From contig NC_080420.1 of assembly GCF_029873635.1 (NCBI RefSeq), positions 34,060,231-34,124,230 on the forward strand: 64,000 nt of DNA, written 5' to 3'. The notes beneath the pieces were generated by a model. It was not told the origin of the DNA and ran no database searches. It saw only the letters and a program-made list of their open reading frames with translations. Position numbers and translations under genes: made by a program. This document shows positions 18,599 through 58,615 of the stretch, one piece after another; position 1 is the stretch's first letter, and every line of letters begins with the position of its first letter. The DNA is from Malania oleifera (lineage: Eukaryota; Streptophyta; Magnoliopsida; Santalales; Ximeniaceae).

Positions 18599-20552
18599 TG
18601 TGAATTCCGATATCATTCCAAGAGTGGGGTGAATTGAGTATTTTTAAAATTAAGTTCTTCAAGTTTTAATTTTGAAAACTATCAATTACAAACTTGTAAG
18701 CTACTTAACAACTAACTCAATGTTTCACAATTAATCAATTTAATGTGTGTCTTTATCAAGCACACAAGTTTACCCAATTACTCACAAACGTACCAAATGT
18801 TCAATACATACACAATAATCAGATAATTTAAATGCAAACGAAAATTAAAAAGAATTAAGGGAAGAGAGATGCAAACTCGATTTTTACGAGGTTCGACCTA
18901 TCCTAACCTACGTTCTCGTCTTGAGCAACCCACTCAAGGATTCCACTAAAAATCCGCTCTTTTAACTGGGACGGAACTTCCCTAACAATCTGCTACTTAC
19001 AAGAGGCGTAACTTCCTCCTCAACCTCGGTTCACAGTCCGAACCGTGAATACAAAATAATGAATACAATTTCTACAACAACTCAAAATACTTCTAACCAA
19101 ACTAGTGACTACATGATAAATCCTAACACATAATCATATGATAAAATATGAAACTCAATATGTATGTAACAATATGATCTTTATATGAAGAATGAGATGC
19201 TTCACAAATCTACCTTTTAATCAATATCTCTCAAAAATTAATTTTTATAAATAAATGCTTTGGAGAACTTAGGGTTTGATTTTGGAGTACTTTATTGCAA
19301 GAATATAAAATAAGATCCCTTGTAAAAATGGTCTTGAATAACACGTAGATCTAAGTTCTTGCTATCAAGTAATTTATAAGATTTAAATCTTTGAATAAAG
19401 AATGTGTCCTTGAATATTACAAAGATTTAAACACTATTTTTCAGGTACCTTTTACACCAATAATGTATATGTTTTTGAATAAAAAATATAACTTTAATTG
19501 TCACAAGGATTTAAGTTTTAGGATACTATTCTCAAAAGATTTTTTAAATAAATAATTATAGGAAAATAGGTTCTTACTCCCAATAAGATTTTTAGATAAA
19601 CAATAATGGAGAAGACGACCGTTTAATAAAAGATTAAATACTCAATAAAATTTCTTTCCAAACCTCAAGATCAAATATAGATTAGCAGAAGTTGTGCGTG
19701 TGTTCACTTGGATTTTGAAGATGCAAATGCTCAGACAAATATGAATTTGTTTGGAGTGTAGGCAAAATTTCTTATCCAAGAATCAAAGCTTTCAAAAGTA
19801 TGCTAAAGATTGATGCAATATGTTCAAGACACTCAAGAGATAGGAAAAAAGTGTTCTTCTAGGGTTTAGGGTTAGTGTATATAAGCAATCTCGCCATCTA
19901 AATAATTTCTAGCCGTTGGATCATTTAAAATATTTTATTTACGTCTGTGTCCATACTAAAACGTTGTTTTGCGCTGTGATCTTTGTCAACGAATGGGTAC
20001 GTTTGTCGATGAGTGTACAACACTCGTTCGTTGTTGAGATCCTAAGTTCGTCGACGAGAGCACTGTCTGAACTTTTTGGGCTCTCGATATATTTTTTGTC
20101 GACGAGACAACACTATTCATTGTCGAGTGGCCTTCATGCGTTCGTCAATGAGGCCATGGGGTTTGTCGACGAGGCCTCTGAAATTTGCCTTTAAAAATTC
20201 TTTCAACCTAGAACTAATGTAAATGAATCTTTCATGAAATGCATGAGTCCTAAGGTTAGTCTAGTGAATGTTTGAACTTCGAATTATATCATATGACATA
20301 TGTAAATACATTCAATTCTAAATACCCATTCCTATTGAAGATCTTGAACTTGAAGCTTGGTTCTTCATCCTTTTATTCCTCTAGTTCCATGGATTGAGGC
20401 AAGTGATATGTACTTTAGGTTTCTCGTGGCCTCCATACAAGTTTACCATTTGTGCATTCTAAATCATGATCTTGTTCACAAACTCAATTGCATAGGTCAA
20501 ATACCAAGTGATTTGTTATTATCAAAACATGATTGGACTCATAGAGTCAACA
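18599..20552 (-). mobile_element. Solo LTR, SIRE/Maximus-like (probable Copia)
   Basis: A 1,954 bp LTR begins TGTGAATTCC and ends GAGTCAACA, with 5 bp repeats ATTAT at 18594-18598 and 20553-20557. On the minus strand it starts TGTTGACTC, has a TATA-like GCTTATATACAC near 19873-19885 and ends with a CAATTCACCCC...CTCTTGG block, as in SIRE/Maximus-type Copia LTRs. The repeat ends define a solo LTR; the Copia call rests on end-motif resemblance only. Two related LTR copies occur at 29557-33759 and 38591-39995. Confidence 0.8.
19983..20172. promoter_or_regulatory. GTCGAC-palindrome module, copy 1
   Basis: Eight degenerate copies of TCGTCGACGA begin at 19983, 20003, 20028, 20048, 20096, 20117, 20142 and 20163, giving spacings 20, 25, 20, 48, 21, 25, 21. 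The module lies upstream of the TATA-like box of this minus-oriented LTR. The central gap contains CTCTCGATAT. Confidence 0.8.
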
Positions 20553-20563
20553 ATTATACTAAT

Positions 20564-21457
20564 TGTTGTGTGTAATTCAGCTAATTGCTAATTCAATTTT
20601 TAGATTTCAATCAATTATAAAATAATAAGAATCCGATTTTACCTAAGCATCAACCAATCACACCTAAACGAAAACTTGTTTATTTTAACATGCGCGTGTA
20701 TGCTAAGCCTGACCAAGAAAAATATATGTTCACCAAATAATATTCAGCAAAGCCACAATAATAATTCAATAAAATATAAACATGCCACAATCACAATCCA
20801 CAAGAACACATTTACGTGGTTTGGCTCAAAAAATGGCTTACATCCATGGCAGAAACTCACTTTCGGAGATACTATATTAAATTTGGTGGAAATAAATATA
20901 CATACACAGATTTACCCTTTCTTGGCTTACCAATCTCCTCTAGAAATCAGCCCAAGAATGACCCAAGAAAGCCCCTCTTCGCACCTGCGAAGAACCCTAG
21001 GCTTCTTCCTAATTTCCCTAGAAGAAAAACATTACCTTCCCTTACCCTTACGTGAACATCCGTTGGAGGTTGGAGATCCCCAACGCCGAACACACTCCTC
21101 TGCTGTCTCCCTCCTGAGCGCACTCCTCACACTCCCGCGCGGTTGCTAAAAGAATCCTTGGCTACAGGCGTCTCTCTCGGTTGTGAAGGCTCTCGCGGCT
21201 GGTGAAGACTTGCGGCTGTGGAATGGAAACCCTCCTATGCTTAGGTGAAGCAAGAAAACTCCTGCACTACTCTTTTCTTTTGCCGAAGCTGAAAGCTGAA
21301 GTGTGAAAAAAAACCCCCACCCCCTGCTGTTTTTATTCATTTACAATTCATTTCAGGCAATTACATCACTGCCCCTATAGCAAAAGTAAACAAAGCAGCT
21401 GTTGGATCTAGGAAAAGAATGGATGACTTAGATTGTTTTAAGCTTGACACTCCAACA
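20564..21457 (-). repeat. 3' LTR of the Tork-like Copia element
   Basis: Runs from TGTTGTGTGTAATTC to CACTCCAACA in plus coordinates and is the partner of 25522-26452. Confidence 0.95.
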
Positions 21458-24400
21458 ATTCTCCACCTTGGCAAGCTTGTGACCCTTGCACCTCTTTAGC
21501 ATCTCCTATGGCGGTTCCTGCAAAACAAACACTAGAAGCTTCCAAGGTTAATCAAGTTTGAACAATGTTCAAACTTGGATTTAGGTACTGCTTTGGTCAT
21601 CATATCAGAAGGATTATCTTCTGTTAGAATTTTCCTTACTTCTATTTCTCCACTAGAAATAATATCCCTCACAAAATGCAGCCTAACATCTATATGTTTG
21701 GACCTATCATGATAAACATGATTCCTAACCAAATTAATAGTGCTTTGATTGTCACAATAAATTATAACTGTTCCACTATACATTCCTAACTCTAGGCACA
21801 ATCCTTTTATCCATATAGCCTCCTTGAAGGCTTTAGTCATGGCAATATATTCAGCCTCCGTGGTAGACAAGGCTACCACCGATTGTATGTGTGATTTTCA
21901 ACTAATAGCACTACCTAAAAAAAGAAAAGACCATACCAGAAAAAGACTTCTTGGTATCTAGATTTCCAGCATAGTCAGAACCTACATATCCTTTTAATCC
22001 TATTTCACAATGCATATCCCTTTTACCAAATATTAATCCTTGCTGTTTTGTTCCAGAAAAGTATTGAAAAATTTGTTTCAAAACATGCCAATGTGGTTTT
22101 CCAGGTTTGCTTATAAATCTACTTACTTGACTTACAACATAAAATAGATCCGGTCTAGAACATACCATAGCATACATTACACTACCAACCATACTAGCAT
22201 AAGGTATTCTATTCATAACAATAGCTCATTTTCAATTTCAGGATACTGTTTTCTAGACAATTTAACATGCTGTGCAATAGGAATAGAACTAGATTTAACA
22301 TGACTCATTCCAAATATTTTTAATACCTTTGAAACATAAGACTTTTGAGACAAGTAGAGAAGCTTTTTACTCCTTTCTCTAGTTATTTCCATACCAAGTA
22401 TTCTTTTAACAGGTCCTAAGTCTTTCATTTCAAATTCAGATTTAAGCATGCACTTAACTTGATTTAACATATCCATGTCTCCACAAGCAACCAACATGTC
22501 ATCAACATATAATAACAAATATATATGACATTTATCACATGATTTTAAAATAAACACAACCATCATAATTGCTTCTACAGAAATCATTTTAAATCATGTA
22601 AGAATCAAATCATTTATACCATTGTCTAGGTGATTGTTTCAGCCCATATAAAGATTTCTTCAATAAACATACATGATTTTTATTCATTTCCATATCAAAA
22701 CCCTTGGGAGGTTGCATATAAATAGATTCTTCTAAAGTACCATGCAAGAAAGCAGTTTTAACATCAAGTTGTTCCAAATGCAAGTCATATACAGCAATAA
22801 AAGATAATAGAATTCTAATTGAACTATGCCTCACAACAGGGGAAAATATTTCATTATAGTCTACCCCTTCCCTTTGTGTAAATCCCTTAGCCATTAACCT
22901 AACTTTATACCTAGGTGGCTCAACTCCAGGGATTCCCTCTTTCCTCTTAAAGATCCATTTCGATCCTATGAGTTTCCGTTTTTTCAGTCTAGGTACCATT
23001 ACCTAAGTCTTATTCTTGTTTAGAAACTCCATTTCTTCTTGCATTGTAAGAATCCATTTTTCAGCCTTTTTACTATCCATGACCTCTCTAAAAGTCCTAG
23101 GCTCCACCTCAATTTCTGTTTCAGCAACAGAAAGGGCAAAAGCTATCATATTAGCTTCCCATACCTTTGAGGAGGTCTTATGACCCTCCTCTCCCTATCC
23201 CATGCTAGAAGGTAGGTTTTACTTAATTCAGAGGTTTCTGGTTTTGAGTTTTGCTCCTCAAAATCTGCAGCATCTGTTTCTAAATTGCTATGAGAAGTGG
23301 AGGGTTGCTCCACCTCAAGCTGCGGGTCACTAGTATCAGAGTGCCTAACACTTTCATATGAATTTTATCGTTTTCCTCCCATCTTAGTTTCATTAAAAAC
23401 TATATCCCTGCTAATAATACATTTTTTTTCCAAGTTCTACAACCTAGAGCTTATAGCTTTTAACCCCCTCGGGGTATCCCACAAAAATGCATTTAATAGC
23501 CCTATGCTCTAATTTATCAGTTCTAATGTGGACATAAGTTACGCACCCAAAAACTTTTAAACCCTGATAATCAGTAGGCTTACGCGACCAGATTTCTTGA
23601 GGGGTTTTAAAATTTAGAGTTGTGGAAGAACACCTATTAATAAGGTATACAACAATGGTCACCGCCTCTGCCCAAAAGGTCTTGGGCAACTCTGAAGTGG
23701 CTAACATGCATCTTACCCTTTCTAGAATAGTCTTATTCATCCTTTTAGTTAGTCCATTTTTTGGGGAGTATCCCTAACAGTCCTATGTCTAGCAATGCCC
23801 TCAGCTTTACAAAATTCAAGAAATTTATTTGACAAGTATTCTAATCCATTGTTTGTTCTCAGTGTTTTAACTTTTTTGCCAACTTGAGTTTTAATTAAGG
23901 TTTTCCATTCTTTAAACTTTTCAAAAGTATCACTTTTATATTTTAAAATATAAACCCATACTTTCCTAGAAAAGTCATCTATATAATTGACAGAAAATAC
24001 CTAAAACCACCATGAGAACTAACCGTAGTAGGCCGCCACAAGTCTGAATGTATGTAATCAAGAGTCTGTTTCGTGGTGTGAGTGAACTTCTTAAAACTAA
24101 CCCTAGTATACTTACCCAAGACACACTCCTCACAGAATGAAAATTCCTCAAGTTTCCTATGCCCAAGCAGCCTCTGTTTCTCTAGCTCCTTTAAGCCCTG
24201 TTGGCTAACATGTCCTAGACTCTTATGCCACAAGGAAACCTGATTTTCTACCCTATGATTGATGGGTGAAGCCTTACCAATCACTGTCTTTCCTACTAAG
24301 GTGTACATCCCATTCTTAAGCACCCCTTTCATCACTACCAGTGAACCTCTACATACTCTTAGGCTACCTCCTTCAGACTTAAACGTGTACCCTGTTTTAT

Positions 24401-25521
24401 TTAAGCTACCAAGAGAAATCAAGTTTCTCTTCAGCTCAGGTATGTAACTCACATCTCTTAGCACTCTTTCAATCCCATCATCCATTAGAAGTCTCACAGT
24501 CCAATACCCTGTATTTTACATGACTTATTGTTTCCTAAGATAACATGACCTCCTTCTAAGCATGTAAAGGACTCGAACCAGTTTTTTAATGGACACATGT
24601 GGAAGGAACATCCTGAATCTAATATCCATTCTTTTCCCGAATCTCTCTCAGAGACGTTCAACACTTCCGCACTATCATACCCATCTAAAACTACATCTGC
24701 CTTACCCTTTGATTCAGAGGTGGTGGCATTTGCAACCTTTTTCCTCTCAGGGCAGTCCCTCTTAAAATGTCCTTCCATGTGACATACAAAACACTTTAGT
24801 GCTTTACTCTTAAACTTTGATCTAGACCTTTTGTCTTTTCCTTTCTTGTCCCTCTTTTCAGATCTACCTCTCACATTTAACCCTTCCCCTGACCCTGATT
24901 TAGACTCAAACTTAGTGTGCAATTCCCTAGAGTGCAAAAAGGCTTGCACATCTTCTAAAGTCAGCCTCTCTCTCTCATACATCATAGTTTCTTTAATATT
25001 TTCATATGTGAAATTAGGAGAACTCAATAAAAGAATTTCCTGGTCTTCTTCATCTATACTAATATTATATTAGCAAGATCCAAAAGAATTTTATTAAATT
25101 CATCTAAATGTTCATCAATAGATGTTCCAAGGGTCATTCTAAAGGTGTAGAGTCTAGTCTTCTTATGGAGTTTATTTGCTAGGGATTTTGTCATGTACAA
25201 ACTTTCTAGTTTTGACCAAACTTCAGCTGTCGTATCCTCATTGGCAACTTCCCTAAGCACTTTGTCTCCTAAGGAAAAGATAATGGCACTATGTGCCTTT
25301 TGGAGGATTTTGAGCTTCACTTTGTCGGCGGAGGGTAAACCTAGTTTCCCCTCTTGTGAAGTGGAAGTTCCCTTCTTTTCTCCAAGAAGAGTCTCCTCAA
25401 GCCCCTGCTGTATAAAGATTGCACGCATCTTAATCCTCCATAAACCAAAGTCATTTTTCCCGGTGAATTTTTCTATTTCAAACCTAGCGTCCATATCACA
25501 TAGTCAGGCTCTGATACCACT

Positions 25522-26452
25522 TGTTGTGTGTAATTCAGCTGATTGCTAATTCAATTTTCAGATTTCAATCAATTATAAAATAATAAGAATCTGATTTTAC
25601 CTAAGCATCAACCACAATCACATCTAAACGAAAACCAATTTATTTTAACGTGTGCGTGTATGCTAAGCCTGACCAAGAAAAATATATGTTCACCCAATAA
25701 TATTTAGCAAAGCCACAATAATAATTTAGTAAAATATAAACATATCACAATTACAATCCACAAGAACACATTTACGTGGTTCGGCCCAAAAATTGGCCTA
25801 CATCCACGGCAAAAACTCACCTTCAGAGATACTATATTAAATTCAGTGGAAATAAATATACATACACAAATTTACCCTTTCTTGACTTACCAATCTCCTC
25901 TGGAAATCAGCCCAAGAATAACCCAAGAAAGCCCCTCTTCGCACCTGCAAAGAACCCTAGGCTTCTTCCTATCCTTCTTCCTAATTTCCCTAAAAGAAAA
26001 CCCTCCCAAGAAATAGATTTGCACATTACCTTCCCTTACCCTTGCGTGAACCTTCGCTGGAGGTTGGAGATCCCCAACGCCGAACACGCTCCTTTGCCGT
26101 CTCCCTCCTGCGCACGCTCCTCACACTCCTGCGCAGCTGCTGAAGGAACCCTTGGCTGTAGGCGTCTCTCTCAGCTGTGAAAGCTCTTGTGGCTGGTGAA
26201 GACTTGCGGTTGTGGAATGGAAACCCTCCAGCGCTCGGGTGAAGCAAGAAACCTCTTGCGCTACCCTTTTCTTTTGCTAAAGTTGAAAACTGAAGTGTGA
26301 AAAAAAAAAACCCCGCCCCTGGTGTTTTTATTCATTTACAATTCATTTCACGCAATTACATCAGTGCCCATATAGTTAAAGTAAACAAAACAGCCATTGG
26401 ATCTGGGAAAAGAATGGACGGCTTGGATTGTTTTAATCTTGACACTCCAACA
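25522..26452 (-). repeat. 5' LTR of the Tork-like Copia element
   Basis: Partner of 20564-21457, with the same termini and a slightly longer body. The primer-binding site abuts its inner edge after two bases. Confidence 0.95.
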
Positions 26453-26457
26453 CTAAT

Positions 26458-27250: not shown

Positions 27251-27259
27251 AGGCATCGA

Positions 27260-30252: not shown

Positions 30253-32291
30253 TGTAACGACTTGCTAATTTTTTTTTCTTTTTTTTTTACTAATAAATAC
30301 TATGAAATTCCACTGCTCTATTATTTTCTAGTTAATATAATACCATCAACGTAAGCAGCGAGAAGCTGAAACCATATAATCACAACCATAAACATATAAA
30401 ATATAATATCGTACAATACCAGAGTGCTAACATACTCCCAAAAAATATACATATAAAGCTGTACCTCCCTAAACATACATACATAACTAAATTGGTACCC
30501 TCTTCCCAAAATCACTCACCCTACTAGTAGGGTAGCACTGTAGCCCCACTACCTGTGAACTTGATTTGCTCACCTAGTTGGATCACCTTGAAAATATCAA
30601 TTAAATGGGATGAGGCGACGCTTAGTAAGAAGAAACATGTTATTACTAGGGTGTAGCAAGTGAGTCATATGCTTAGAGAATCTGATATAAGTAAATACCA
30701 TAATTAATAGAATTTGCAGAAAACTCACATGTCTATTACAGTATAACATACACCTAGGTTGTTTAACATAATCTGGTTTTTATAAATAATCTGTTCACAA
30801 TACTTCTAAAGTATCTAGGTAGGACTAATTTCTGAAAATATGATCATACATATATAATAAAACTGAGAAAATTCCCTGGATGGATAACTGAAGTCATGAA
30901 TTAACCCCTCATGACAGGGTTGTGCGGCCCGAAGGCGGGACCTAACCCGGCTGGCCGACCAGGGTAAGTCAACTGAGTTCCGATAGTTAGATTGGCCCCC
31001 TCAACCCATATCTGATGGGGAGCCTATCCACAACATAGGTACGATCGACTTCTAAATACCACCTATTATCTGAATAGGGGTTGCACTCTAAACTGAATAT
31101 AGCTACGGTACCGTGCTCTGCTGCTAAATATGGTCTATTAGGGTCTGATACTATATACGTAACTGATATTTCTAAAATACTATTTTTACCATGATTTTGT
31201 AGCAGCTGAAATAACCATAACATAATATATACTAAGCTAAATAAACTGTAATAACTGGATATCTGGTATGTCTGCATAACTGAATAAATGAATTTTCTGA
31301 TTAACTGTATAAATTGAACGTTATAGTTTTGAAATGGTTATATCATAATATTCTGAGAAATACTGTAAAATACGAGTTTCTGTGCGTGTGCTGAAAATCA
31401 TGGTATTCTGGAAATTATGGAAACCTTGTACTGGGCTAATAATAAACTTATGCCACACCATTAAACATTAATATTATCAGGCTCTGAAATCGCATAAATA
31501 ATCTGAATAATAATTTGCTGAAAATATATAATTTATACTGAATCATAATAGGTCTGCCTAGCATAGCATATTTCCCTTACCTTGTTCTGGCTAAAACCCC
31601 CTACTGTATCGGGTCCTACACCCGTAGGGCTTCCCACTCAACACCCTGAAAACCATATATTTTAGAACAAAATGTCACTATTTCTACGTCTACTATATTT
31701 CCTACAGCTGTTGGAAAGCCAAATTTCAACAAAAAAGTCTTACCCTGAATCTGGGATGAAATCCAACTTCGTCCCATTGACGGTCTGCTCCGGCAGGCTT
31801 AGGGGGAACTTCCCCAGGAGCATCGTGGTGGCCTTAGATCGTTAATCTGGTGGTTGACGGGGCCAAAATCGAGGAGAAAGGGAGGAGGAGCCGTAGAGGA
31901 GAAAAGAGGAAAGATTTCGGTGAATTCCCTACGAGAAAACTGAGTTAAATACTATTTATACTGCGGACTTCGTCGACAAGCCACGTCATCTCATTGACGA
32001 GGTCATGAAGAAGGTTCATCGACGAACACCATCTCCTTGTTGATGAATTTCAAAATTTAGAAAACAGCCTCTCGGTATCTTCTTGTCAACGAAACGTATC
32101 CTCATCAACGAGACCCTATGTTATCCTTATTGAAGAATCCCTTGTATTCGTTAACAAGTCCTTGATTAAATTCCTGGGTTATTACACCCAAAGTACAACA
32201 TCGTCGATGAAGCCTGCTGCCTCCTTCTATTTCTGTTTCCATTTCCCTCCCTCTTTATTATTTAAATGCCATTATTCTTTGGGTCACTACA
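30253..32291 (-). mobile_element. Solo LTR, Gypsy-like, nested
   Basis: A 2,039 bp LTR begins TGTAACGACTTGC and ends GGGTCACTACA, with perfect target repeats AAAGT at 30248-30252 and 32292-32296. A minus-strand TATA box (AGTATAAATAGT) lies near 31951-31962. The TGTAGTGACCC-type start on the minus strand and the general layout resemble the chromovirus LTRs at 49230-58615. Confidence 0.88.
31970..32157. promoter_or_regulatory. GTCGAC-palindrome module, copy 2
   Basis: Motif starts at 31970, 31991, 32016, 32037, 32083, 32102, 32127 and 32148 give spacings 21, 25, 21, 46, 19, 25, 21. The gap holds CTCTCGGTATCTTC. The module lies about 10 bp upstream of the LTR TATA box. Confidence 0.85.
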
Positions 32292-36346: not shown

Positions 36347-38590
36347 TAGTAACAACCCAGAAAATTTAATTAATAAAAACAATAAAAGAAAAGGAAAGGA
36401 AAGAGAGGAGGGAAGAAAAAGGAATATTTAAAAAAGGTGTCAGTGAGAACTCGTCGACGAACCAACTGGTCTCGTCAACGAGCATTCTTCTTTGGCCCAT
36501 CGACGAGGGCAATGTCTCATCGATGAGGAGTTACCGAGAGGGTTTGTGGTATTCTGAAACTCATCGACGAATTCACAGTATCGTAGACGAGTGTTCTTCA
36601 TGAGATCGTTGATAAATCCACTTGTCTCGTCGACGAGTCGCTGTCTATAAATAGCAATATCTTTCATTTTTCAGTGAGAAAATTTATTTTCTCTCATTTC
36701 TCTCTCTAAAATTCGGCCCTTCTACCTTCTCACTACAATTCTGACCCGAATTTAGCCCGATTCAATGATTGGAAGCTATCACGAGACTCCTTGGAAGATT
36801 CTCTGCAATATAGGCGGAGCAGATTTTTAGTTTGGAGTACTTGGGAATCATCCCAAAATCAGGGTAAGTGAGATATTTTAGGGTTTTATTATTATTATTT
36901 TGAAATATATGGAACATAGGAAGTATTAAATGAGTGTTTTTCTGAGATTTGAGTAAGTTGAGATTTTTGGAATACAAGGTCTTATTTCCATTCGATTTAG
37001 GTAGGAACTTGAAAAGCGGGTAAGGGGAAATACTTTATAACAACTTTTTATTAATTTTAAACCGGTTAAGTTTGGGTATAAAATTCTATATATATATTGG
37101 TATAATTTTCGGTACAGGTATTAAAAATATTGTTTTTGATTATATACTATATTAGGAAAAATCGTGTGGCATGAAAACAACTTTGATAATTAAATGGTTG
37201 CGAGTACTGCAAAATTATGATTTATTGTGTCATTGTGAATACTGTTTGGGCTGTGAATTCTGCTTGGTTGAAAATACTGGTTGGTTGTGGATACTATCTG
37301 ATTGTGTATACTGTGGTAGATGCGTGGATGTACTTGAGTGGTTGGTTTTGTTATTGATCTGTGCTATGATTCATGTAAATTGCGATATAGCATTAGCAGT
37401 GGTATGAGGAGGTCATTATATTGTACCTGATATAACTGTCATATAACGTTGGCAGTGGTATGAGGATGTCATTATATGGGCATTTATGTTAGGGGGTAAA
37501 ACATTGGCAGTGGTATGAGGAGTTTGTTTTTCTTATTTACCATGAACAGGGTGGTATGTGTGTAACCTGTGTGTATGAGAAGCAGGTGTTGTAACCTGTG
37601 TGGTGGATAGTCCTGTGTGGACATGTATGTTTTATGTATGATTGTATTGTGTGGACCAGTCCTGTGTGGACATCTATGTTGTATGTATGAGAGTCCTGTG
37701 TGGATGTTGCATTCTGTGTGGATATGGACCCTGTGTGGGTGAGAATGAAGAATGTGTATATCCTGTGTAGATTGATTGTGGTATGCGTATATGTGTGGAA
37801 CTTTGTGAAATGATTGGCATTGGTTGCGTGTAACTTTAATTACTTAAGTATTTAGGGTAAAATAGAATACTCTGCCCAAGAGCTTGTTGAGGAAGGCAAG
37901 TGCTTTGGTAATAATCTGTGGGTACCAGAACAGAGGGAAGCCACTTCTATAGGTTGGTGGCCTTCCCTATTCTCGAAGACTTTACCTAGATACATGATCC
38001 GAGAGCTTACTGAGAAAGGTGTGTGCCCTAGTTTTAGCACTAGAGCAGAGGAAATCTACTTGTATAGGCGGGTAGACTTCCCTATTCTCGAGAATTATTA
38101 GTAAAATAATTATGTATGTGTGTATGTGATTGGATGACAGAGAAGTCAACAATGATGTGATTAAGAATGCATTTTCTCAACTGCTATTGATAGTGAAATA
38201 TAATTGTATGTATAATTTGTAATTTTATATTAAAAACTTTAGCCACACACTGTTATAACTTATTTCTTCTTTACTGAGAGGTGTCTTACCCCAACGGTTT
38301 ATTAATCTTTTCAGGTCCTCCAGGTGATTGAGCTTAGAAAGCTCCAGGGCGGGTTAGTTTTGTGAGTAAATAAAAGAACGAATATGTGTATAGACTGTGT
38401 TTAATGTTTTGTCTTAGTTATGTAATATGGAATATAGTTATACCTTTTTATGGGTTTGCTTATGTAAATATAGTACTCTGGTATTTTGTTTGAGGATGTT
38501 TAATTAAGTTCTGCTGCATGAATGGTATCAGAGACATATGGATGATCTCATAACACTCCGAGCCCCACGTGGTGGATCTGAGACGTTACA
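36347..38590 (+). mobile_element. LTR of a Gypsy-like element, probably solo
   Basis: It begins near TAGTAACAACCCAG (an altered TGTAACAACCC-type start) and ends GACGTTACA at 38590. A TATA box TATAAATAG lies at about 36645-36653. Inside are degenerate short repeats (GGCAGTGGTATGAGG three times at 37397-37520; CCTGTGTGGA units at 37560-37760) and two related ~125 bp blocks at 37877-37980 and 38000-38100. Near its end it carries GAGAGGTGTCTTACCCC, shared with the other Gypsy LTRs here. I could not establish a clean 5 bp target repeat. Confidence 0.7.
36451..36636. promoter_or_regulatory. GTCGAC-palindrome module, copy 3
   Basis: Motif starts at 36451, 36472, 36497, 36517, 36561, 36581, 36606 and 36627 give spacings 21, 25, 20, 44, 20, 25, 21. 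The first and last motifs are perfect TCGTCGACGA. The TATA box follows about 10 bp after the last motif. Confidence 0.88.
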
Positions 38591-45193: not shown

Positions 45194-46865
45194 GTTCTCA
45201 TAGCACCATCAAAAATTTTTATTAACATTTCCTATACCAATGATCTTACAAGAAACATCATTACCCATAAAAACTGAACTTGAATTTACTAACCTGTAGG
45301 TGTTGAATCCCTCTTTTTTTGGAGTCATATGGTAAGAACATGCTGAGTCAAGTATCCATGAGTTTGTAGGTGATTCGACCCCGATGAAACCGAAAGAATA
45401 TCACCATCACTGCAAACTGAATTTCCTTCTTGAACCACATTCGCTGATTTTGAAGTCCCTTTATGCTTTTCAACATTTCCTTTCTTCCAATCCGGACACT
45501 CCGGTTTAACATGCCCCTTTTTACCACACTTGTAACACCGGATATCCTTTTTCTTTTTGGATTGACTACGAGATTTTTGACTCGATCCACTTTTGATCTT
45601 TCCTTTGCCACACTCATTTTTATCTTTCACCACAAGTCTTTCTCCTTCATCACATATTTTCAGCATTTGATGAAAATTCAACAAAGCACTTGTTTCCTCT
45701 TCTAAATTAAGAGTCTCTTTTCCCCATGTAAGAGTGGTAACTAAATTTTCATAAGTATGATTCCTTGGCAAGAAATTTAGTAACATCATATTCTTAGCAT
45801 CTTCATCAAACTTAACATTAACATGCATTAAATCACTAATAATTTGATTAAATGCATTGATGTGTTGATTTAAGTTTGAACCATCAACCATCTTAAGCCA
45901 ATAAAGACGCTACTTAGGAAATAACTTATTAGAAAGTAATTTGGACATATACCAGCTTTCTAAATTTTGCCACACAACTGTTGGAGAATCCTCCTCCATT
46001 GCATGATAGAGTACTTCGTCGGCTAAACATAAATGTATTGTGGAAACGGCCTTTGCCTCCAATTCTCTCCAAGTTGCTTCATCTGTACTGACCGGTTGAA
46101 CACCATACAAAGCCTTCACCATCCCTTATTGCACAAATATATCCTTCACTCTCTTCTGCCATTAACCGAAATTTTCGATTCCATCGAATTTGACAACATC
46201 AAACCTACCTTGCAGAAGAAGAACTTGATGCCATGACAACAATGCTCTGATACCAATATTGTTGGAATAAAACGAGTATGGGATTGCACATCGAAAATTA
46301 TAAACGTAGCAAGCAATGAAGCACTAAAGTAGAATTCAAACACTAAGAATATGTAAAAACAACAAGAATCAACACACAAATATATGTGGTTCGGCAATGC
46401 CTACATCCACGGGAGCAATCCAGCAAAGGTTTCACTATGAAAATAAAAATTACACAATACAAAGATACAATGATCTCTCTCTATACATTATATGCCTAGA
46501 AAGACATATTTATCAACCCCTCAGAGGCTTCCCTCCAAATACCCAACCATCCTAACGTTCCAATTCAAAAGTTGAATTCTTTCTCGCAGCCCTGAGAGCA
46601 TTAGTCGACGAGAAGGATACACTCATCAACGAGAAGGCCACTGATGAGAAGAGTCCACTCGTCAACGAGTCACTGAAACTGCTCTCAATATCTCAAAACT
46701 TATGAATTTTTCTGACTCTCGGTATCTTCTCTCACTCGTCGACGAGTCTCTGCTGCTCATCACCAAAAGACTTCATATATGCTTTTCTTCCTTTTATCTA
46801 TATACTCCACAAAGTACAAGAGCCACACAAATACAACATAAAGATCGAATTCTCGAGTAATAACA
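45194..46865 (-). mobile_element. Tork-like Copia 5' end: LTR, primer site and gag
   Basis: Minus-oriented. The LTR is 46260-46865 (TGTTGGAATAAAACG to GAGTAATAACA in plus coordinates). The primer-binding site is at 46244-46255, then gag (about 45340-46240) with Copia gag wording NLESWYMSKLLSNKL and a CCHC knuckle CYKCGKKGHVKPEC. The rest of pol is missing beyond about 45194, where the 42714-45193 LTR begins. Coding is broken in a few places. Confidence 0.85.
46602..46767. promoter_or_regulatory. GTCGAC-palindrome module, copy 4 (in a Copia LTR)
   Basis: Motif starts at about 46602, 46623, 46638, 46659, 46736 and 46758 form a degenerate version of the eight-motif layout, with three gaps of 21-22 bp kept. 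CTCTCGGTATCTTC lies in the central gap. It is upstream of the LTR's TATA-like box near 46505 (minus strand). Confidence 0.7.
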
Positions 46866-47099: not shown

Positions 47100-48979
47100 T
47101 GTAGAGACGCAAACCCGGAAAATAAGGAAAATAAATAAGAAAGTAAAATTTTAGAAGTGGAACAATAGGCTTCGTCAACGAGGTCCATGTTCTCATCGAA
47201 GAAAGCCCTTATGAGGTTTGTCGCCAAAATTCAGAGTCTCGTCAATGAAGAGATCCCAAATGGCAGAAAAATATCAGGCTAGGGTTCGTCGACGAAGGAA
47301 GAGGTTTGTTGATGAATGGTCTTCTAGGGTTCATCGATGAAGGTGCCACTTCGTCGACGAATTTGACCGAGTTAAGAGTTTATAAATAGGATTTTTGTTT
47401 GCTTCTTCATTAAGAAAGCTAAATCTCTCTCTCTCTCTAGAACCACGAACCCCACTCTCTCTCTCTTAAGTTTCTTTGTTGTTCGTTGCCCGAATTGACA
47501 ATCAAAAGTTACCACGAGGATCAGGGAGTGAATATCTACAATCCTAGCAAAGTAGAATCTTGATTTCGGGAAAAAGTTAGGAATCGGTTTTCGAGCGTTT
47601 TAGATTCTTTTTCAAAAATAGGTAAGGGGATTAAGTTAAGTCAGCTTTTTAATGAAATTGAACTGTTTGAAATGTTCATGGAGTAAGTATATTTATGTTT
47701 TCAATTGAAGTTTCTAAAACCAACTGTTTAAAGGATCTGTTTTCAAGCCTAGGATATATGTTATGGTATTTTTGATAAAACAAATGGTGGAAAGCTCGGT
47801 TTATGTTTTAAACTATATATGCTATGTTTTTCTTGGTTGCCTATGGGCTATATTCAAAGTACAGGAAATTGTGTGGCAGGTGAATGATATGTATATATTA
47901 TTTCATAACCGAAATGATGAATGTTTGTGAAATACTAGAATTTTTTATGAAAACGCAGGGAGATTTATATAATGGCCGTGAGGGTCGATTTTTGTACTAT
48001 GTCAGGTTTTATATGAAATGAATATAAAATATGGTTTTATTACTTAAATTGCATGATATGCTTTAGGAACCCTGATGGACCATTATGTTAAAAGCACGAT
48101 ACCGTTGCTAGGAATTATCTATGTGACCATGTGTGCCCACATTGTACTGCGAAAGTGTTCTGGGTGGTCTATGTTGATTAGCCTCGGTAGAGGGAGTACT
48201 ATACTTGGAAGCCTGGACTTTCAAGACACGGTAGGACAATTGGGTCATGCAAATAAGTTGCGGATGCCTGCGCAGTCAGAGTTATGACGCAGATGTATGT
48301 TGACTTTGTTTGGGTTGATCACCCTGGGCTTAGTCTAGCCTTCGGACAACACGACCCTACTCACGGGGGTTTATACATTGCGTTAGTCCCAAGAAGAGTC
48401 TTTTATGCATATCTGTATATTTATGCAAATGATGTTATGTGATTAATGAATTGTTTATGTTAGGAAGATGAAACGAGTATTTCCAACCATATAAGTACGT
48501 ATGATGTAAGACAGTTATTTTCAGTTACATGAAGAATGAATGTTTTTCTGTAAACACTAATGCATGCTGCCCACACACTGATACTAACTTGATCACCCTT
48601 ACTAAGAAGTGTCTCACCCCAATATACAAATAATCTTTTCAGGAAATAACAGGTATCGTGCTTAGCAGGATCAGAGGGTAAAGGATAGAATAGTTTCTTT
48701 TTGAGAGTGTCTGTAAGAACTTAGATGTGAGTAGCTATGTTGTATGCCTCTGGGCTTGTATTATGGTCGTATGGACCCAACTAGTTGTTCAGTTTTGGTT
48801 GGATTGTAATATGGATGTTTGCAAACTTATATGTATGAAAGGACTTAGAACTCTAGTAATGTATGTTTGGTGATTGTTTCAATACTTCCATTGCATTTAT
48901 GTTTAATGGTTATGGAATTAGGTACATAGACGTCACTAAAGTAGCACCCCGGTCCCACATGGAGGACCAGGGTGCTACA
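47100..48979 (+). mobile_element. Solo LTR of the Tekay-like Gypsy family
   Basis: A 1,880 bp LTR begins TGTAGAGACGC and ends GGTGCTACA, with target repeats CCCAA (47095-47099) and CCTAA (48980-48984) differing at one base. Its whole layout matches the LTRs of the chromovirus at 49230-58615 in opposite orientation, including the palindrome module, the TATA box (TTTATAAATAGG near 47378), the (CT)n leader and the GAAGTGTCTCACCCC block near 48605. Confidence 0.88.
47172..47360. promoter_or_regulatory. GTCGAC-palindrome module, copy 5
   Basis: Motif starts at 47172, 47193, 47218, 47239, 47286, 47306, 47331 and 47351 give spacings 21, 25, 21, 47, 20, 25, 20. The TATA box follows after about 18 bp. 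Confidence 0.88.
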
Positions 48980-49229: not shown

Positions 49230-51377
49230 TGTAGCGCCCCAACCCTCTAGGTGGGCCCGAAATGCTACTAAATATACATAACATACATCTCTCTAATACC
49301 ATACATATACAATCCACCCAAACAAGGAAAAAACGAGTGTTCTATATTGATCTATAAAATATACACAGCGGATATACATACATCATCCAATACTTACTAG
49401 AGTTTCTAATTGTTTCCCCTATACATCCATACATGATTGAAAACATAACCTGCTATATATTACAATCCCCAAAAGAGGCTGACATTGTCTAATATCTCAC
49501 CAGCTCTGACAAAGACTGTCTACTATCCAAACTTAACCTGGTAGGACACTAGGCTTGATCCCACGGAGGACCTAAAATAACATTTGTATGCGTGGGTGAG
49601 ACACCTCTCAGTAAGACAGACTATATTATCATCAGTTTGTGGCTAGCATGAGATTTCATGTGTGCATATTCTACTGACATTAAGCATTTAACTGGAATTT
49701 TAAAACTGTATTGGAATGTATATATGAAAAATACATACTTTCATTCTAACATATTGCTAGCTCAATATATCCCTCTTTATAGTAAATATGCCCATATAAG
49801 CCTAGAGATGCAACCTGGTTTGTAGAACTAGAGTCATCACGCAAGTTCACATACTCTACTCTGACATGCTTCCCCCTATGACGGGTTGTGCGGCCTGAAG
49901 GTGGGACCTAGCATATAGCTGGCTGACCATAGCTAAGTCAATCTTTGAAGTAGTACAATGGTGCCTACCCTTACCCGCAGATGCTACCCGGGTAGAGTGA
50001 TCCAGGATTACTGCATCGGATGGAGCCCCAAAATTACTACATCGGGGAGTACTGTACCAGGGTCACCAATCGCCTTTCCATATCCACACTCTAGCTAAGA
50101 TGTGTGGTTGCACCTCTCTCCACATTATGGCCCCGGTACTGTGCTTATAACATATCTTTGCTATACATAGGGCTCTAAAAGCATATATGACAATTTACAT
50201 CATAATAAAACTAAAACATAATTCATTTCATAAAATTGAATACAACATAATTTGTACGTATCTTTGTAAAATATATCTATCAAATACTACCTCGATAAAA
50301 ATAGACGTATCATAAACTCGGATTTAGCCGTCATAACTCATTTCGGCATTTAGCCATCATATCTCATATCTCGACATATAGCCATTACCTTTCAGTATTA
50401 TACAAAACCTGTTCATTTAATGTCAATTAAAAATTATACTCATGCCACACAATTTTTCATCTGGTAACTCATAAATAAATCATCTGCTAGAGAACATAAA
50501 TACTGCTGCTAAACTGGGGTATGAATATCCTTAGGTTATTACTTTACTAAATATAGATATATAGCTAAATATGGGGAAAATGGAGATAATCAACCGTACC
50601 GTCTTTGGTTGGTTTTAAAACAAGTCTATGGTTTGAAATAACAATTTCCTAACCGGTAAAAAAGTTCATAAAGTCCATTACTATACTTTAAAAATATCAT
50701 ACTTAAATTTAAACAGTTGATTTTGAAAATAAAGTCGGTTAACCGAACCTTAGGCCTGAAAACCCTAGAAAAGGCGTAACTATTTATCTAAAAACCGTTT
50801 TAACATTTCATTCCGTTAGAAATCATAAACATAGTTGACATAATATAATCCCCTTACCTATTTCCCGAAAATGACCTGAGATGCTCAAAAACCGAACCCT
50901 AGCCCTTTTCCGAGATCAAGAATCCATTCTACTAGACTTGTAGGTATTCGCTCCTTGATCCTCATGGTAACTTCCGATCGTTGAAACGGGCAACGATCGG
51001 AAAAAGATTGAAGAGAGAGAAAGAGTGTGGGCTCTAGTTAGAGAGAAAGAGAGAGAGATTTCCATTCTTAATGAAGAAGCAATTGAAAATCTATTTATAA
51101 ACCCTTGACTCGGTTAACTTTGTCGACGAAATGGCGCCTTCATCTATGAACTACAGAAGGTCATTCATCGACGAAAGAAGGGCTTCGTCAATGAACTCTA
51201 AGCCTGATATTTTAGGTCGTTTTGGATCTCTTCGTCGACGATGCTCTGAATTTTAGCGACGAACCGCATAAGGGCCTTGATTGACGAGAACATGGACTTC
51301 GTTGACGAAGCCTGCTAAAATCCCCTTTTTTCCTTTTCTTATTTAATTTCCTTATTTTCCTGGTTCGGGTCTCGACA
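49230..51377 (-). repeat. 3' LTR of the Tekay-like element
   Basis: TGTAGCGCCCC to GTCTCGACA in plus coordinates. TATA wording TATTTATAAACC lies near 51093-51104. Confidence 0.95.
51120..51308. promoter_or_regulatory. GTCGAC-palindrome module, copy 6
   Basis: Motif starts at 51120, 51140, 51165, 51185, 51232, 51253, 51278 and 51299 give spacings 20, 25, 20, 47, 21, 25, 21. It lies directly upstream of the LTR TATA box on the minus strand. Confidence 0.88.
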
Positions 51378-54300
51378 ATCTCCCATCCTTATAAAAATTT
51401 CGTTCTCGAAATTTTCTAATTGTTTTCTATCACATCATCTAAACCATCACTACTCTAACTCTAAGAAGAGCAAGCGACCACTCACATAGTAGCCTCGTCC
51501 CAAATTTATTATCTGCCCTGACTTATGGCGTAGGAATACCGTGGTTATACTTAATGTCTCTAGAGATTACAATATCCAAATACAATTCTCCTGAAGACCA
51601 AATATACTCTAAACCATAAACAAACTTACTCTAACTATAATACATACATACCACTTACTTGTCATTCTATCTACCTGTCTAGCTTTGAGCGTCTCTGAAT
51701 AACTGTGGGTACTTTTGACGTATTTTTGACTCTAACTCCTACAAAACCTCCTTTACTGCGTGATTACGCCACATTACCTTTACTAGTGGAATCCTCTTCA
51801 TATGTAGTTCTTGCTCTCTATAGTCTAGGATCTAAACTGGTATCTTCTTATATGCTAACGTGGCCCTGAGCTCCAATGACTCATAACAGATCACATGCAA
51901 AGGATCTGGAACATTCCTCTTAAGCATGGACACGTGGAACACGTCGTGAATCCTAGATAGTGCTGGAGGTAATGCTATCCTATACGCCATCGAACTGACT
52001 CTCTCCAAAATTTCGAATGGCCCGACGTACCTAGGGCTCAATTTGCCCTTCCTACGAAACCTCATCACTCCTTTCATCGAAGCAATCCTAAAAAATATAG
52101 CATCACCTACCTCGATTTCTAGCTCCCGTTGGCGTGTATATGTGTAACTCTTCTGTCGACTTAAAGCTGCTTTAATCCATTCCCTAATGAGCTTGACCTT
52201 CTCTGAGGTTTGCTAAACCAGATCTGGAACCAAAATCTGTTGCTCACCAACCTCATCCCAGTACAATGGAGATCGACACCTCCGACTATATAGTGCCTTA
52301 TACGGTACTATCTCGATACTGGCCTGATAACTATTATTGTAGGCGAACACAACCAACGACATATATTTGATCCAACTGCCCCCAAAATCCAGTACACACG
52401 CTCTTAGCATATTCTCTAGAATATGGATGGTCCTATCTGACTGACCATCGGTATGTGGGTGAAACGCAATACTGAACGTAAGTTGAGATCCCAACGCTTC
52501 CTGAAGACTCTTCCAGAATCGGGAAGTAAACCATGGATCTCTATTTGAAATAATAGACACCAGCACCCCATGCAATCTGACAATCTCCTAAATATAAAGC
52601 TATGCCAGCTTATCCATGGAATAATTGACTTTAACCGGGATGAAATAGGTAGTCTTAATTAATCTGTCAACCACTACCCAAATCGCATTATGTATGTGAA
52701 GTGCTTATGGCAATCCCATGACAAAATCCATGGAAATGTGCTCCCACTTCCACTTAGGAATAAGAAGTGGTTGCAACGGTCCCGCTGCCTCTAATGCTCG
52801 GCCTTCATCTACTGACATGTCAGGCACTACTCTATGAAATGGGTGATCTCTCTTTTCATGTTAGACCACTAGAAAGATTCCCACAAATCCCTATACATTT
52901 TCGTACTCCCTGGGTGTACTGTGTAGAGTGAACGATGTGCCTCCTCTAAAATGACTCGCCTAACCTCGTTGTCATTTGGTACGTAGATCCTACTATAGAA
53001 TCTCAACACCCCATCATCGGAGATATTGAAATCTGATTTCAAGCCATTATACACTCCCTCTACAACCTCTACCAGCTCGACATCTCTCGTCTGATCTGTT
53101 CTAATTCTCTCCCTTAAGGTCGGCTGAATAACTAAATTGGAAATGAGCGCCTGTGGATCCTCATCCACCAATTCCACTCCCAACCTCTCTAGATCCATCA
53201 TGATCTGATACTGTACAACAACTGCTGAAACTGACGCATCTACTGATTTTCGACTCAGAGCATCAGCTACCATATTAACTTTTCCTTGGTGGTAACTAAT
53301 ATTACAGTCGTAGTCCTTTATCAACTCCAACCATCTCCTCTGCCTCAGGTTCAACTCCTTCTGGGTGAAAAAGTACTTAAGACTTTTATGATCGGTAAAA
53401 ATCTCACACCTTTCACCGTACAGGTAGTGTCTCTAGATCTTCAATGCATACACTACCGCTGCTAATTCCATATCATGTGTCGAGTAGTTCTTCTCGTACT
53501 CCTTGAGTTGATGAGAAGCATAAGCAACTACCTTTCCTTGTTGCACTAGAACACACCTGAGACCCTTCTTAGAGGCATCCCTGTAGATAACAAATCCACC
53601 ATCCCCTAATAGAATGGTCAGAATTAGAGCAGTAACCATCCGCTGCTTCAATTTATAAAAACTCTACTCGCACTTATCAGTCCATTCAAACTTTACGTTC
53701 TTCCTCGTGAGTCGTGTTAATGGACCTGATAGTCTGGAGAACCCTACTACGAACCGTCGGTAGTATCCTGCAAGACTTAGAAAACTTTTGACCTTCTAAA
53801 CATTTTTCAGTCTTGTCTAGTCCACTACCACTTCTATCTTACTTGGATCCACTGATACCCCTTCCTTGGACACAACATGCCTCAGAAATGCCACCTGTTC
53901 TAACCAGAACTCGCATTTCTTAAATTTCGAAAACAACTTCTTCTCCTTGAGCACCCAAAGTACCAACCTCAAATGAACTGCATGCTCCTCGGGACTCCTC
54001 GAGTAAACCAGGATGTCGTCAATAAAAATGACCACGAATTGATCCAGATACTCATAGAACACCCTGTTCATCAAGTCCATTAATGCAAGAGCATTGGTCA
54101 ATCTAAAAGACATAACCAGAAATTCATAGTGGCTATATCTAGTTCGGAATGCAGTCTTCGGTACGTCCTCCAATTTCACCTTCAGTTGATGATATCCATA
54201 TCGTAGATCGATCTTAGAGAAGACCTGTGTGCCCTGTAATTGGTCAAAAAGATCATCAATTCTAGGTAACGGGTATTTATTCTTCACTGTCACCTTGTTA

Positions 54301-56541
54301 ATCTCTCTGTAGTCGATGCACATCCTCATCGACCCATCCTTTTTCTTTACAAAAAACACCAGAGCTCCCCAGGGTGAAACACTCGATCGGATGTAACCCT
54401 TATCTAGTAGCTCCTGTAGCTACTCCTTCAATTCCCTCAGTTCTGTCGGAGTCATACGATATGGAGCTTTCGAAATCGGTGTCGTGCCTGGAGTTAACTT
54501 TATAGCGAACTTCACCTAACGATCAGGAGGCAATCCCGCCAAGTCCTCAGGAAATACATCTGAGAACTCATTTACTATGGGAATCTCCTCCATCTTAAGT
54601 TCTTCTCTCAGCGTTTCTTTCACAAACGCTAGATACCCCTAGCATCCCTCCAGCAGTAACCTCCTAGCCTAAATAGATGAAAGGATACGTGGTGCAAAAA
54701 GCACACACGACCCTAAAAACTTGTATTCCTGCTCTCTAGGAGGCTCAAATACTACCTCTCTCCTGTGGCAATCGATGTTGGCATAATTGGATGCTAGCTA
54801 GTCCATCCCCTGAATAATATTGAAGCTGTGCATATCAAGCACAATCAAACTGACTGGTAATACTCTTCGCTGAATCTCTACTGGGAAATCCCGAATCACC
54901 CTACTGCATACAACTTTTGACCCTGACGGTGTAGCCACTGCTAATTCAGCATTTAATAGTTGTGCCTTTAACTCACATAATTTAACGAATCCCCCGGAAA
55001 TAAAGGAATGCGTTGCTCTTGAATCAAATAGTACAACAACTATATTCAAAAGCATATAAATAATACGTGTCACCACATCTCCGACGTTCTCTGCGTCACC
55101 AGGAGTTAGGGAATACACCCTTGCCTGGGCTGTACCCCTATGATATCCACCATGTGGTGCCTGATAGCTTCCTCGAGATGGTTGCTGTGGGGGTGCGTTG
55201 CTCCCCAACAAGTCGCACTCATGTGCTATATGCCCTGGTCTACCACACCGGTAGCAAACACCTGATCCCCACATACACTTTCCTGAATGTCGTTTGCCAT
55301 AAGTAGAACAAACAGATGAAGATGAGGTTCCCTAAGATGTACCACCACCAGTCGCCACAGGCCTCCGCCACCCTATATTTCTTCCTAGTACCCTGCCTCG
55401 CACTTGAATAAGAATTGGAAGGTGTTAGCCTCTTCTTCGGAATCTGAACCTTTAAATCCCCTTGCAGGCTTTCCTCTGCCACGGTGGCCTTATCCACCAG
55501 CGTAGTAAAATCCTGATTCTGCAGTATTGTCATCTACTTCTGGATCTCCTTCTTGAGACCACTCTCAAACTTCCAAACTTTCCTCCCCTCATCCGATATC
55601 ATAAACAGAGCAAAACGTGATAACTCCATGAATCTGGCGGCGTACTGCTAAACTGTCAGCTGCCCCTGAGTCAGAATCCTGAACTCCTCCATCTTTACGT
55701 TCCTGACGGAGGCCGGAAAGTACCACTAAAAGAAAACCTCTCTTAAATGGTTCCATGTCACCATCACTTGTACTGGCCTCTGCTCCTCCAACATCCTCAC
55801 TAATTCCCACCATCTCTCTGCCTTGCCTGTCAACTTAAAAGTCACGTAGAGCACCTTCTGCTCATCCATGCAACGTAGAACGGCCAAGATCTTCTCGATC
55901 TCCCAAATCCAAATTCTCTACTCGGATCAGGTCTATTCTCCCTGCGAAGGTAGGAGGCTTCAGTCTGGTGAACTGATCAATAGAACCTCCCAGCTCAGCC
56001 ATGGGACGATCCTGCCCCCTAGAAGTTTGCATGACCTCTGCCATAAACTGCTGGGCGAAGTCACAAAGTACAACCGTGGAGTCATTGCCAGCCTCATGGC
56101 TAGCCCCATCACTGCTACTGCCACTAGCATTCGCAGCATTATCCCCGGACTCCATCCTGAAGAGACTATTAAGAAAATTATTTAGAATCTTGGTACCTTA
56201 CATATTGGCTACTACTACAATACTATAAGACCCATCTTAATAAACCAATGCCCCTAATAACCACGTACTCTGCCAACCTAATACCCTCATTCTAACTCAA
56301 GTTCTGCCCCTCCACTCGGAAACAAAACTGTCAATGGATTGCCGTGATTTTATGAACATGTTGACTTATCCAGAAAAACATAGAAGTCTGCCAATGGAAT
56401 TTCTGCCTCCAAGCTTACGAAGCAAAACCCAAAAGTCCTATCATACACATTCCTATCATTGTCCTACTCTGATACCTATACTCTGGTAAGACCATCTGAC
56501 TTAAATTTTCAGAACCTAACAACCTAGGCTCTGATACCACC

Positions 56542-58615
56542 TGTAGCGCCCCGACCCTCTAGGTGGGCCTAGAGTGCTACTAAACATACATCTCTCTAAT
56601 ACCATACATATACAACCTGCCCAAAAAAGGGAAAAACAGGTGTTTTATACTGATCTGTATAAACATACACAGTAGAAATACATACATCATCTAAAACTTA
56701 CTTGAGTTTCTAATTGTTTCCTATATACATCCATAACCAAAAGCATAATCTTCTATATATTACAATCCCCAAAAGAGGCAGACACTGTCTAATATCTCAT
56801 TAGCTTTGACAAGGACTGTCTACTATCTAAACTCAGCTCGGCAGAACGGTAGGCTCGATCCCTCGGAGGACCTGAAACGACATTTGTATGCTAGGGTAAG
56901 ACACCTCTCAGTAAGACAGATTATATTATCATAAGTGTGAGACTAGCATTAGATTTCATGTGTTCATATTCTACTATCATTAATCATTTAATTAGCATTT
57001 TAAAACTGTACTAGAATGTATATCTGAAAAATACATACTTTTATTCTAACATACTGTTGGCTCAATATAGCCCTCTCTATAGTAAATATGCTCATATAAG
57101 CCTAGAAGATACAACCTGGTTTGTAGAACTAGCATCGTCACACATGTTCACGTACTCTACTCTGACTTGCTTCCCCCCATGACGGGTTATGCTGCCCGAA
57201 GGTGGGACCCAACATATAGCCGGTTGATAATAGCTAAGTTTATCTCTGGAGTAGTACAATGGTGCCTACCCTTACTCGGAGATGCTACTCGGGTAGAGTC
57301 ATCCGAGATTACTGCATCGGATGGAGCCTCGGAATTACTACATTGAAGAGTACTTTACCCAGGTCACCAATCGCCTTTCCATATCCACACTTTAACTAAG
57401 ACATGTGGTTGCACCTCTCTCCACATTATGGCCCCTGTACCGTGCTCATAACATATCTTTGCTATACATAGGGCTCTAAAAGCATATATGACAATTTACA
57501 TCATAATAAAACTGAAATATAGTTCATTTCATAAAACTGTATACAACATAATTTGTACGTATCTTTGTAAAATATATCTGTCAGATACTGCCTCGGTAAA
57601 AATCGGTGTATCATAAACTCGACTTTGAGCCGTTATAACTCATTTCGGCATATAACCATCATATCTCATATCTTGATATATTGCCGTTACCTTTAAGTAT
57701 TACATAAAGCTTGTTCATTTAATGTCAATTAAAAACTATCCTCATGCCACACAATTTTTCATCTGGTAACTCATAAATAAATCATCTGCTTGAGAACATA
57801 AATACTGTTGCTAAACTGCTAATCAACCCTACTGTCTTTGGTTAGTTTTAAAACAAGTCTATGTTTGAAATAAAAATTTTCCAACCAGTAAAAATGTTCA
57901 TAAAGTCCATTACTATACTTTAAAAATATCATACTTAAATTTAAATGGTCGGTTTCGAAAATAAATTCAGTTAACCGAACCCTAGGCCCGAAAACCCTAG
58001 AAAAGTTGTAACTGTTTATCTAAAAGCCGTTTTAACATTTCATTTCGTTAGAACTCATAAACATAGCTAACATAATATAATACCCTTACCTTTTTCTCGA
58101 AAACGACCCTAAGTGCTCAAAAACCGAACCCTAACTCTTTACTGAGATCAAGAATCCACTCTACTAGACTTGTTGATATTCGCTCCCTAATCCTTGTGGT
58201 AACTTCCAATCGTTGAAACAGGCAACGATCGGCGAAAGATCGAAGAGAGAGAGAGTGTGGGCGCTAGTTAGAGAGAGAGAGAGAAAGAGAGAGAGATTTC
58301 CATTTCTTAATGAAGAAGCAATTGAAAATTTATTTATAGACCCTTGACTCGGTTAGCTTCGTTGACGAAATGGCGCCTTCGCCGACAAACTACATAAGGC
58401 CTTTCGTCGAAGAAAGAAGAGCTTCGTTGACAAACTATAAGCCTGATATTTTCGATCGTTTTGGATCTCTTTGTCGATGATGGTCTAAATTTTGGCGACA
58501 AACCGCATAAGTGCCTCGTTGACTAGAACATGGACTTCATTGACGAAGTCTGCTGAAATCCCCTTTTCCCTTTTCGTATTTAATTTCATTATTTTTCCTG
58601 ATTCAAGTCTCTACA
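56542..58615 (-). repeat. 5' LTR of the Tekay-like element
   Basis: Partner of 49230-51377, ending AAGTCTCTACA. It is somewhat shorter because of small indels. Confidence 0.95.
58359..58546. promoter_or_regulatory. GTCGAC-palindrome module, copy 7
   Basis: Motif starts at 58359, 58379, 58404, 58424, 58471, 58492, 58516 and 58537 give spacings 20, 25, 20, 47, 21, 24, 21. Nearly every motif has drifted from TCGTCGACGA, yet spacing is kept. Confidence 0.85.

Follow-up and report, generated by a model that had tools for sequence, protein, structure and literature searches.

Arrays of factor-binding sites in long terminal repeats (LTRs) are already known as a kind. The U3 region of the Copia elements Tnt1 and Tto1 carries repeated motifs (BII box, 13-bp motif); ONSEN is another Copia family, and VANDAL21 is a DNA transposon that itself encodes the protein VANC21. 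According to passages of the ONSEN work, the LTR promoter of this family contains sites for a multimeric host factor and no CG sites (PMC3907296). The VANC21 system is characterized, in parts of its published description, by high-density arrays of a short motif (YAGTATTAY) in non-coding transposon DNA (PMC5735166), and a study of Cassandra reports a promoter module (5S) that is kept in LTRs of otherwise variable sequence and length (PMC10853983).

Here we describe LTR arrays of CpG-rich palindromes in a 64,000-nucleotide stretch of the Malania oleifera genome (hereafter the window; positions 34060231-34124230 of contig NC_080420.1), with genome counts that cover the whole 1.494 Gb assembly. 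The repeated unit, TCGTCGACGA, is perfectly self-complementary and contains three CpG. With up to one mismatch allowed, the window contains 23 copies where 0.14 would be expected, a number reached in none of 100 shuffles. Genome-wide, the exact string occurs 132,361 times and its reversal 1,383 times. A sample of 20 evenly stepped 10-kb genome pieces yielded 40 sites at the same tolerance, against one in the reversed sequence, and 36 of the 40 sit in eight arrays of at least two sites; from these eight arrays in 200 kb, the genome total is estimated at about 60,000 arrays (95% range, 26,000 to 118,000). Plain chance as the source of the arrays was rejected by the window shuffles, the reversed-sequence sample and the grid scores given below. 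A single tandem repeat or satellite was rejected as well because the palindromes recur while the spacers differ, leaving no head-to-tail unit that includes the spacers. All seven arrays reported in the earlier note were recovered at their positions (Table 1). Other features of the window are an open frame of 669 aa that contains a PI3/PI4-kinase domain and is likely a host gene (12193-14202), degenerate repeats with copies at 46- and 180-bp steps (41367-42408) and a piece matching methyladenine glycosylase (60083-60442).

Table 1. Palindrome arrays and the LTR elements that carry them (positions in the window)
Feature	Position	Strand	Basis
8-site palindrome module in SIRE-like Copia LTR	19983..20172	- (promoter strand)	sites, grid, LTR identity
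SIRE-like LTR	18945..20553	-	5' end near 20553 (TGTTGACTC); alignment extends back to 18945 but is poor or absent against L069/L071 over 19170-19959; 3' end approximate
8-site module, Gypsy-type LTR	31970..32157	-	TATAAATA 19 bp past last site; flank similarity to L009
8-site module, Gypsy-type LTR	36451..36636	+	TATAAATA 19 bp past last site; flank links only
Copia element LTR	46271..46838	-	adjoining TGGTATCAGAGC primer site; gag piece 45328-45909
Looser palindrome array with core motif, in Copia LTR 46271..46838	46602..46745	-	off 8-site grid
8-site module, Gypsy LTR starting at 47100	47172..47360	+	TATAAATA 30 bp past last site
Gypsy element 3' LTR	49230..51377	-	
8-site module in 3' LTR 49230..51377	51120..51308	-	
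Gypsy coding pieces RVP_2, RVT_1, RT_RNaseH, Integrase_H2C2, SH3_Tf2-1	51832..55331	-	between LTRs 49230-51377 and 56542-58615
Gypsy element 5' LTR (same element as 49230..51377)	56542..58615	-	
8-site module in 5' LTR 56542..58615	58359..58546	-	

The consensus start-to-start spacing of the array is about 20-25-20-46-20-25-20 bp, that is, four pairs with about 20 bp inside each pair and mirror symmetry about a 46-bp centre. The fitted spacings in the window are 20-25-20-48-21-25-21 (array starting at 19983), 21-25-21-46-19-25-21 (31970), 21-25-20-44-20-25-21 (36451), 21-25-21-47-20-25-20 (47172), 20-25-20-47-21-25-21 (51120) and 20-25-20-47-21-24-21 (58359). The near-fixed spacing previously claimed for six of the seven arrays is thereby confirmed, the exception being the array at 46602-46767, which does not fit the grid (score 46 of 80, with 304 random pieces reaching 42 or less). 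Stretches of the same family as this array score 39-47 against the null maximum of 42, and most arrays of Gypsy type and of the SIRE-like lineage score 55 to 80; values are lower for L024, L064, L065 and for L019, an array outside the lineage assignment. Extending the comparison to altered spacing orders, as the earlier note had proposed, also supported the grid. Over 59 stretches, none of the other 105 gap orders reaches the summed score of the true order (3,549; next 3,392; mean of the 105 orders 3,158, SD 125), and stretch by stretch the true order ranks first in just 22 of the 59. Genome-wide, triples of exact sites with spacings of 20 then 25 occur 2,857 times when both strands are counted (1,420 forward and 1,437 reverse), against 27 for 25 then 25 and 149 for 20 then 20; most of the 25-25 triples hold two identical or near-identical spacers and so represent recent local duplications. 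Exact pairs number 20,830 genome-wide at gaps of 2-32 (control, 0) and 27,766 at gaps of 33-63 (control, 1), and among the matches listed for the former class all 83 plus-strand pairs are spaced 19-21 or 24-26. Two loci, L037 and L048, have ten or more sites and retain a 20/24 alternation. An extra palindrome lies about 50-65 bp beyond the eight-site array, on the side of the LTR start, in L029, L031, L037, L042 and L048 and at 32201 in the window.

With a helical turn of 10.5 bp, both members of a pair face the same side of the DNA and the next pair is turned by about a third of a turn, so that the suggestion of binding on one DNA face holds within pairs and fails across them. The centre of the array contains a further element, the motif CTCTCGGTAT, located 4 bp off the neighbouring palindrome, with 3,583 exact hits genome-wide (1,756 plus 1,827). 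The motif was not found on the opposite side of the centre anywhere in the genome, so the core is polar; among the matches listed, the gap to the palindrome is 4 in all but one, although 2 to 6 were permitted. In the subfamily of the arrays at 47172, 51120 and 58359, the centre matches the core weakly.

In both Gypsy-type and SIRE-like LTRs, the repeated motif lies in the U3 upstream of the TATA box, the order on the promoter strand being module, then TATA. The opposite arrangement for the SIRE-like module, downstream of TATA, was rejected because the coding strand and the LTR ends place the module upstream, on the minus strand. For the five window arrays of Gypsy type, the distance from the start of the last site downstream to the start of TATAAATA is either 19 or 30 bp, in agreement with the previous description of a module of fixed geometry close to the TATA box. 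A TATA-like box is present within 60 bp downstream in 22 of the 32 Gypsy-type modules, at a first-match offset of 19 bp in 10, 30 bp in five and 13 to 31 bp in the remaining seven; the 11 bp between the two modes correspond to one helical turn. The exact TATAAATA occurs within 40 bp downstream in 20 of the 32 modules and at the mirror place in none. In the SIRE-like LTRs, TATA is about 110 bp from the module, and in the LTRs of the second Copia lineage no TATA was detected after the array in the scanned stretch, except at 568 in L072; therefore, contact with the TATA complex cannot apply to all carriers. The last spacer before TATA in Gypsy-type modules (for example, L009_8299, L030, L035 and L037) is often GGTGACGTGGC on the promoter strand, which resembles a plant bZIP site.

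The U3 regions that carry the arrays belong to Gypsy chromovirus-type LTRs, to the LTRs of a SIRE-like Copia lineage and to those of another Copia lineage, in which the array is looser. The five Gypsy-type arrays of the window (31970, 36451, 47172, 51120 and 58359) form one cluster by flank similarity at E 1e-10, which at E 1e-15 splits into a main group (the first two, labelled Gypsy-type via flank similarity, not through coding sequence of their own) and a smaller group (the other three). The earlier description of unrelated LTR families thus applies to the two arrays in Copia LTRs, the SIRE-like one at 19983 and the other at 46602, and not to the five of the seven in a single Gypsy-type cluster, of which the arrays at 51120 and 58359 belong to the two LTRs of one Gypsy element. 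Among the Gypsy carriers, L009 encodes RVP_2, RT_RNaseH, SH3_Tf2-1 and Chromo domains and would accordingly qualify as a Ty3/Gypsy chromovirus, with a chromodomain match (E 0.0014, 18.9 bits) under the Pfam cut-off of 25.1; no chromodomain was detected in the five small pieces scanned of the window element.

Among 40 scored copies of the flank of the SIRE-like array, three pairs lie on the same strand at distances of 5.4 to 6.3 kb. One of these pairs encloses pieces of Copia gag, zinc knuckle, GAG-pre-integrase and integrase, and the LTR ends show TGTTG preceded by AAAAAGAGGGAGAT. The members L069-L071 combine Copia gag and integrase with a long LTR beginning TGTTG and the purine tract AAAAAGAGGGAGA, features from which we take this lineage to be SIRE-like. 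Of ten SIRE-like copies obtained by flank, nine have sites (L065 has none), and the eight-site grid is retained. The 5' end of the SIRE-like LTR in the window is abutted by a Copia element (about 20553-26452) in which no site with at most one mismatch was found and which accordingly lacks an array; its position may reflect a chance nested insertion. The second Copia lineage (L072-L074), with RVT_2, gag_pre-integrs and an LTR pair, is represented by four same-strand pairs at distances of about 4.6 to 4.7 kb and another at 6.6 kb among the 40 scored copies of the array at 46602; its array is at best a quartet with a wider centre and two core copies, short of the full grid. A flank link of this array to the Gypsy cluster proved to be an artefact, the flank having overrun into the LTR at 47100, and was dropped on reclustering.

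Owing to the mode of replication, the two LTRs of an element are identical at insertion. In four LTR pairs, from an analysis that drew on all 32 Gypsy-type modules, the sites differ at 61 of 278 columns, compared to 327 of 3,318 elsewhere (Fisher p 1.5e-8). CpG transitions account for 327 of the 429 site mismatches in the sample (337 of 352 sites kept), as expected for methylated CpG. Of the 59 stretches, the between-family and spacer comparisons used 44, of which 32 are Gypsy-type and 12 are SIRE-like; the 11 stretches of the W46 family were left out, as were L065 and any stretch that scored below 55 with a looser tolerance. Furthermore, since 22 of the 37 first arrays came from 20 loci (L029-L048) chosen for exact pairs, the between-family identities were limited to 10 untargeted Gypsy-type modules. 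Among Gypsy-type pairs with flank identity below 0.6 (36 of 45 untargeted pairs), identity is 0.73 in the sites, 0.44 in the rest of the module and 0.51 in the flanks; between Gypsy-type and SIRE-like modules (120 pairs), the respective values are 0.69, 0.41 and 0.47, against 0.40, 0.41 and 0.46 when the SIRE-like sequences are read backwards. The site values are inflated because the grid fit chooses sites by motif likeness, and the backwards control, made without a grid refit, measures this inflation incompletely. Faster decay when idle, combined with the best conservation across families, appears to be a sign of selection on replicating elements.

Collectively, these sequence comparisons lead us to propose, with moderate confidence, that the module acts as an enhancer of transcription within the LTR U3, bound by a putative host dimer that recognizes the palindrome. 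The geometry is compatible with cooperative binding of a dimer. Under this model, homodimers of one host protein would occupy the eight sites as four pairs, a partner protein would occupy the polar core 4 bp from the central palindrome, and the dimers together with the core partner would switch on the TATA promoter, whose distance to the last site in the Gypsy-type LTRs is mostly 19 or 30 bp. Several observations count against the enhancer, among them that three CpG per site are a liability under plant DNA methylation, that the second Copia lineage retains only part of the array and that TATA is distant in the SIRE-like LTRs. A literature search combining CGTCGACG with Arabidopsis transcription factors gave no title on such a site among the matches listed.

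The CpG load raises the possibility that the arrays are instead anti-silencing or methylation-reading targets, where a factor loads on the dense CpG palindromes, whether methylated or unmethylated, and keeps the LTRs accessible, in the manner of VANC rather than of a classical activator. The three CpG per site are kept between families despite their rapid decay, closely packed motifs in non-coding transposon DNA typify, in parts of the VANC21 work, the targets of that protein (PMC5735166), and the ONSEN LTR, in contrast, has no CG sites by passages of its description (PMC3907296); it is this difference in CpG load that keeps such an interpretation alive. However, in the same parts of the VANC21 work the motifs are in one orientation and rare outside VANDAL21 (PMC5735166), whereas the sites described here are palindromic, rigidly spaced, near TATA and present in both Gypsy-type and Copia LTRs. 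We consider this explanation unlikely.

How the module came to be shared is a separate question. Three spacers (the centre, fifth and seventh) exceed the reversed control in the comparison of Gypsy-type with SIRE-like modules, the similarity of the centre being biased because this spacer served to set the orientation, and the other four of the seven are no more alike than the control, or less. The two Copia lineages have 20 nt upstream of the core in common (5 of 2,000 permutations reach the value), a stretch that Gypsy-type shares with neither of them. The dissimilar spacers and the absence of these 20 nt from Gypsy-type would fit convergence, that is, separate construction of the arrays in Gypsy and Copia lineages under reward from the same host factor, a scenario that is compatible with an enhancer function. 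Nevertheless, the identical order of eight sites with a polar core beside the centre is unlikely to have arisen twice, and the two Copia lineages do share the stretch upstream of the core, so we assign convergence a low probability. An old transfer with later loss of spacer similarity is favoured: given that geometry and core are shared and the spacers and flanks have diverged to background, the module was probably passed between Gypsy and Copia lineages by recombination and then kept by selection.

The flank similarity that links 33 of 36 sampled arrays (the one at 46602 left out) to one Gypsy-type cluster at E 1e-10 would also be expected if a single Gypsy LTR family had simply spread, with the module and its spacing as functionless relics. 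Plain descent of this kind is improbable in our view because the sites decay fastest after insertion and yet are the best conserved between families, because sites and core are present in two Copia lineages, and because the geometry is retained between Gypsy-type and SIRE-like modules with spacers and flanks at background. A role of the self-complementary sites in dimerization or folding of the genomic RNA, of which U3 is a part as it is transcribed at the 3' end, is very improbable. Complementary double changes show no clear excess: 25 sites have changes at both position 3 and position 8 (18 complementary), where 22.3 would be expected, and at each of the remaining four position pairs double changes are fewer than expected. 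The spacing and proximity to TATA also indicate double-stranded DNA.

If the enhancer model is correct, unrelated retrotransposons of one genome obey a common rigid regulatory grammar, and one factor could explain bursts across families; the arrays, some 60,000 in number, would then constitute a large stock of ready-made enhancers. The rapid decay of CpG after insertion, set against long-term conservation, offers a clean internal test of function. More tentatively, and with some doubt, the module might be regarded as a mobile promoter cassette in tens of thousands of copies, through which one palindrome-binding, methylation-tolerant or methylation-reading regulator would control much of the retrotransposon load in both LTR superfamilies.

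Among the matches listed from the open-licence literature, we found no description of a palindrome grid that is ordered, includes a polar core and is common to Gypsy and Copia. The described systems each share some features with the arrays reported here. Tnt1 and Tto1 similarly have repeated regulatory boxes in the U3 of Copia elements, but these are few, belong to one family and are not known to form a palindrome grid common to Gypsy. The Cassandra module, according to its description, resembles a host gene promoter and occurs in one non-autonomous lineage (PMC10853983), whereas the module described here is not known to derive from a host gene. VANDAL21 has, in parts of the VANC21 work, a motif in one orientation that is rare in other elements (PMC5735166); the arrays of the window differ from this type, a same-orientation array of a single transposon family, in that their sites are palindromic and reside in Gypsy-type and Copia LTRs. 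ONSEN likewise has an LTR promoter with sites of a multimeric host factor; by passages of its description, it is one family with nTTCnnGAAn sites for HSF trimers (PMC3907296), whereas in Malania oleifera both Gypsy-type and Copia elements carry eight CpG-rich palindromes on a fixed grid.
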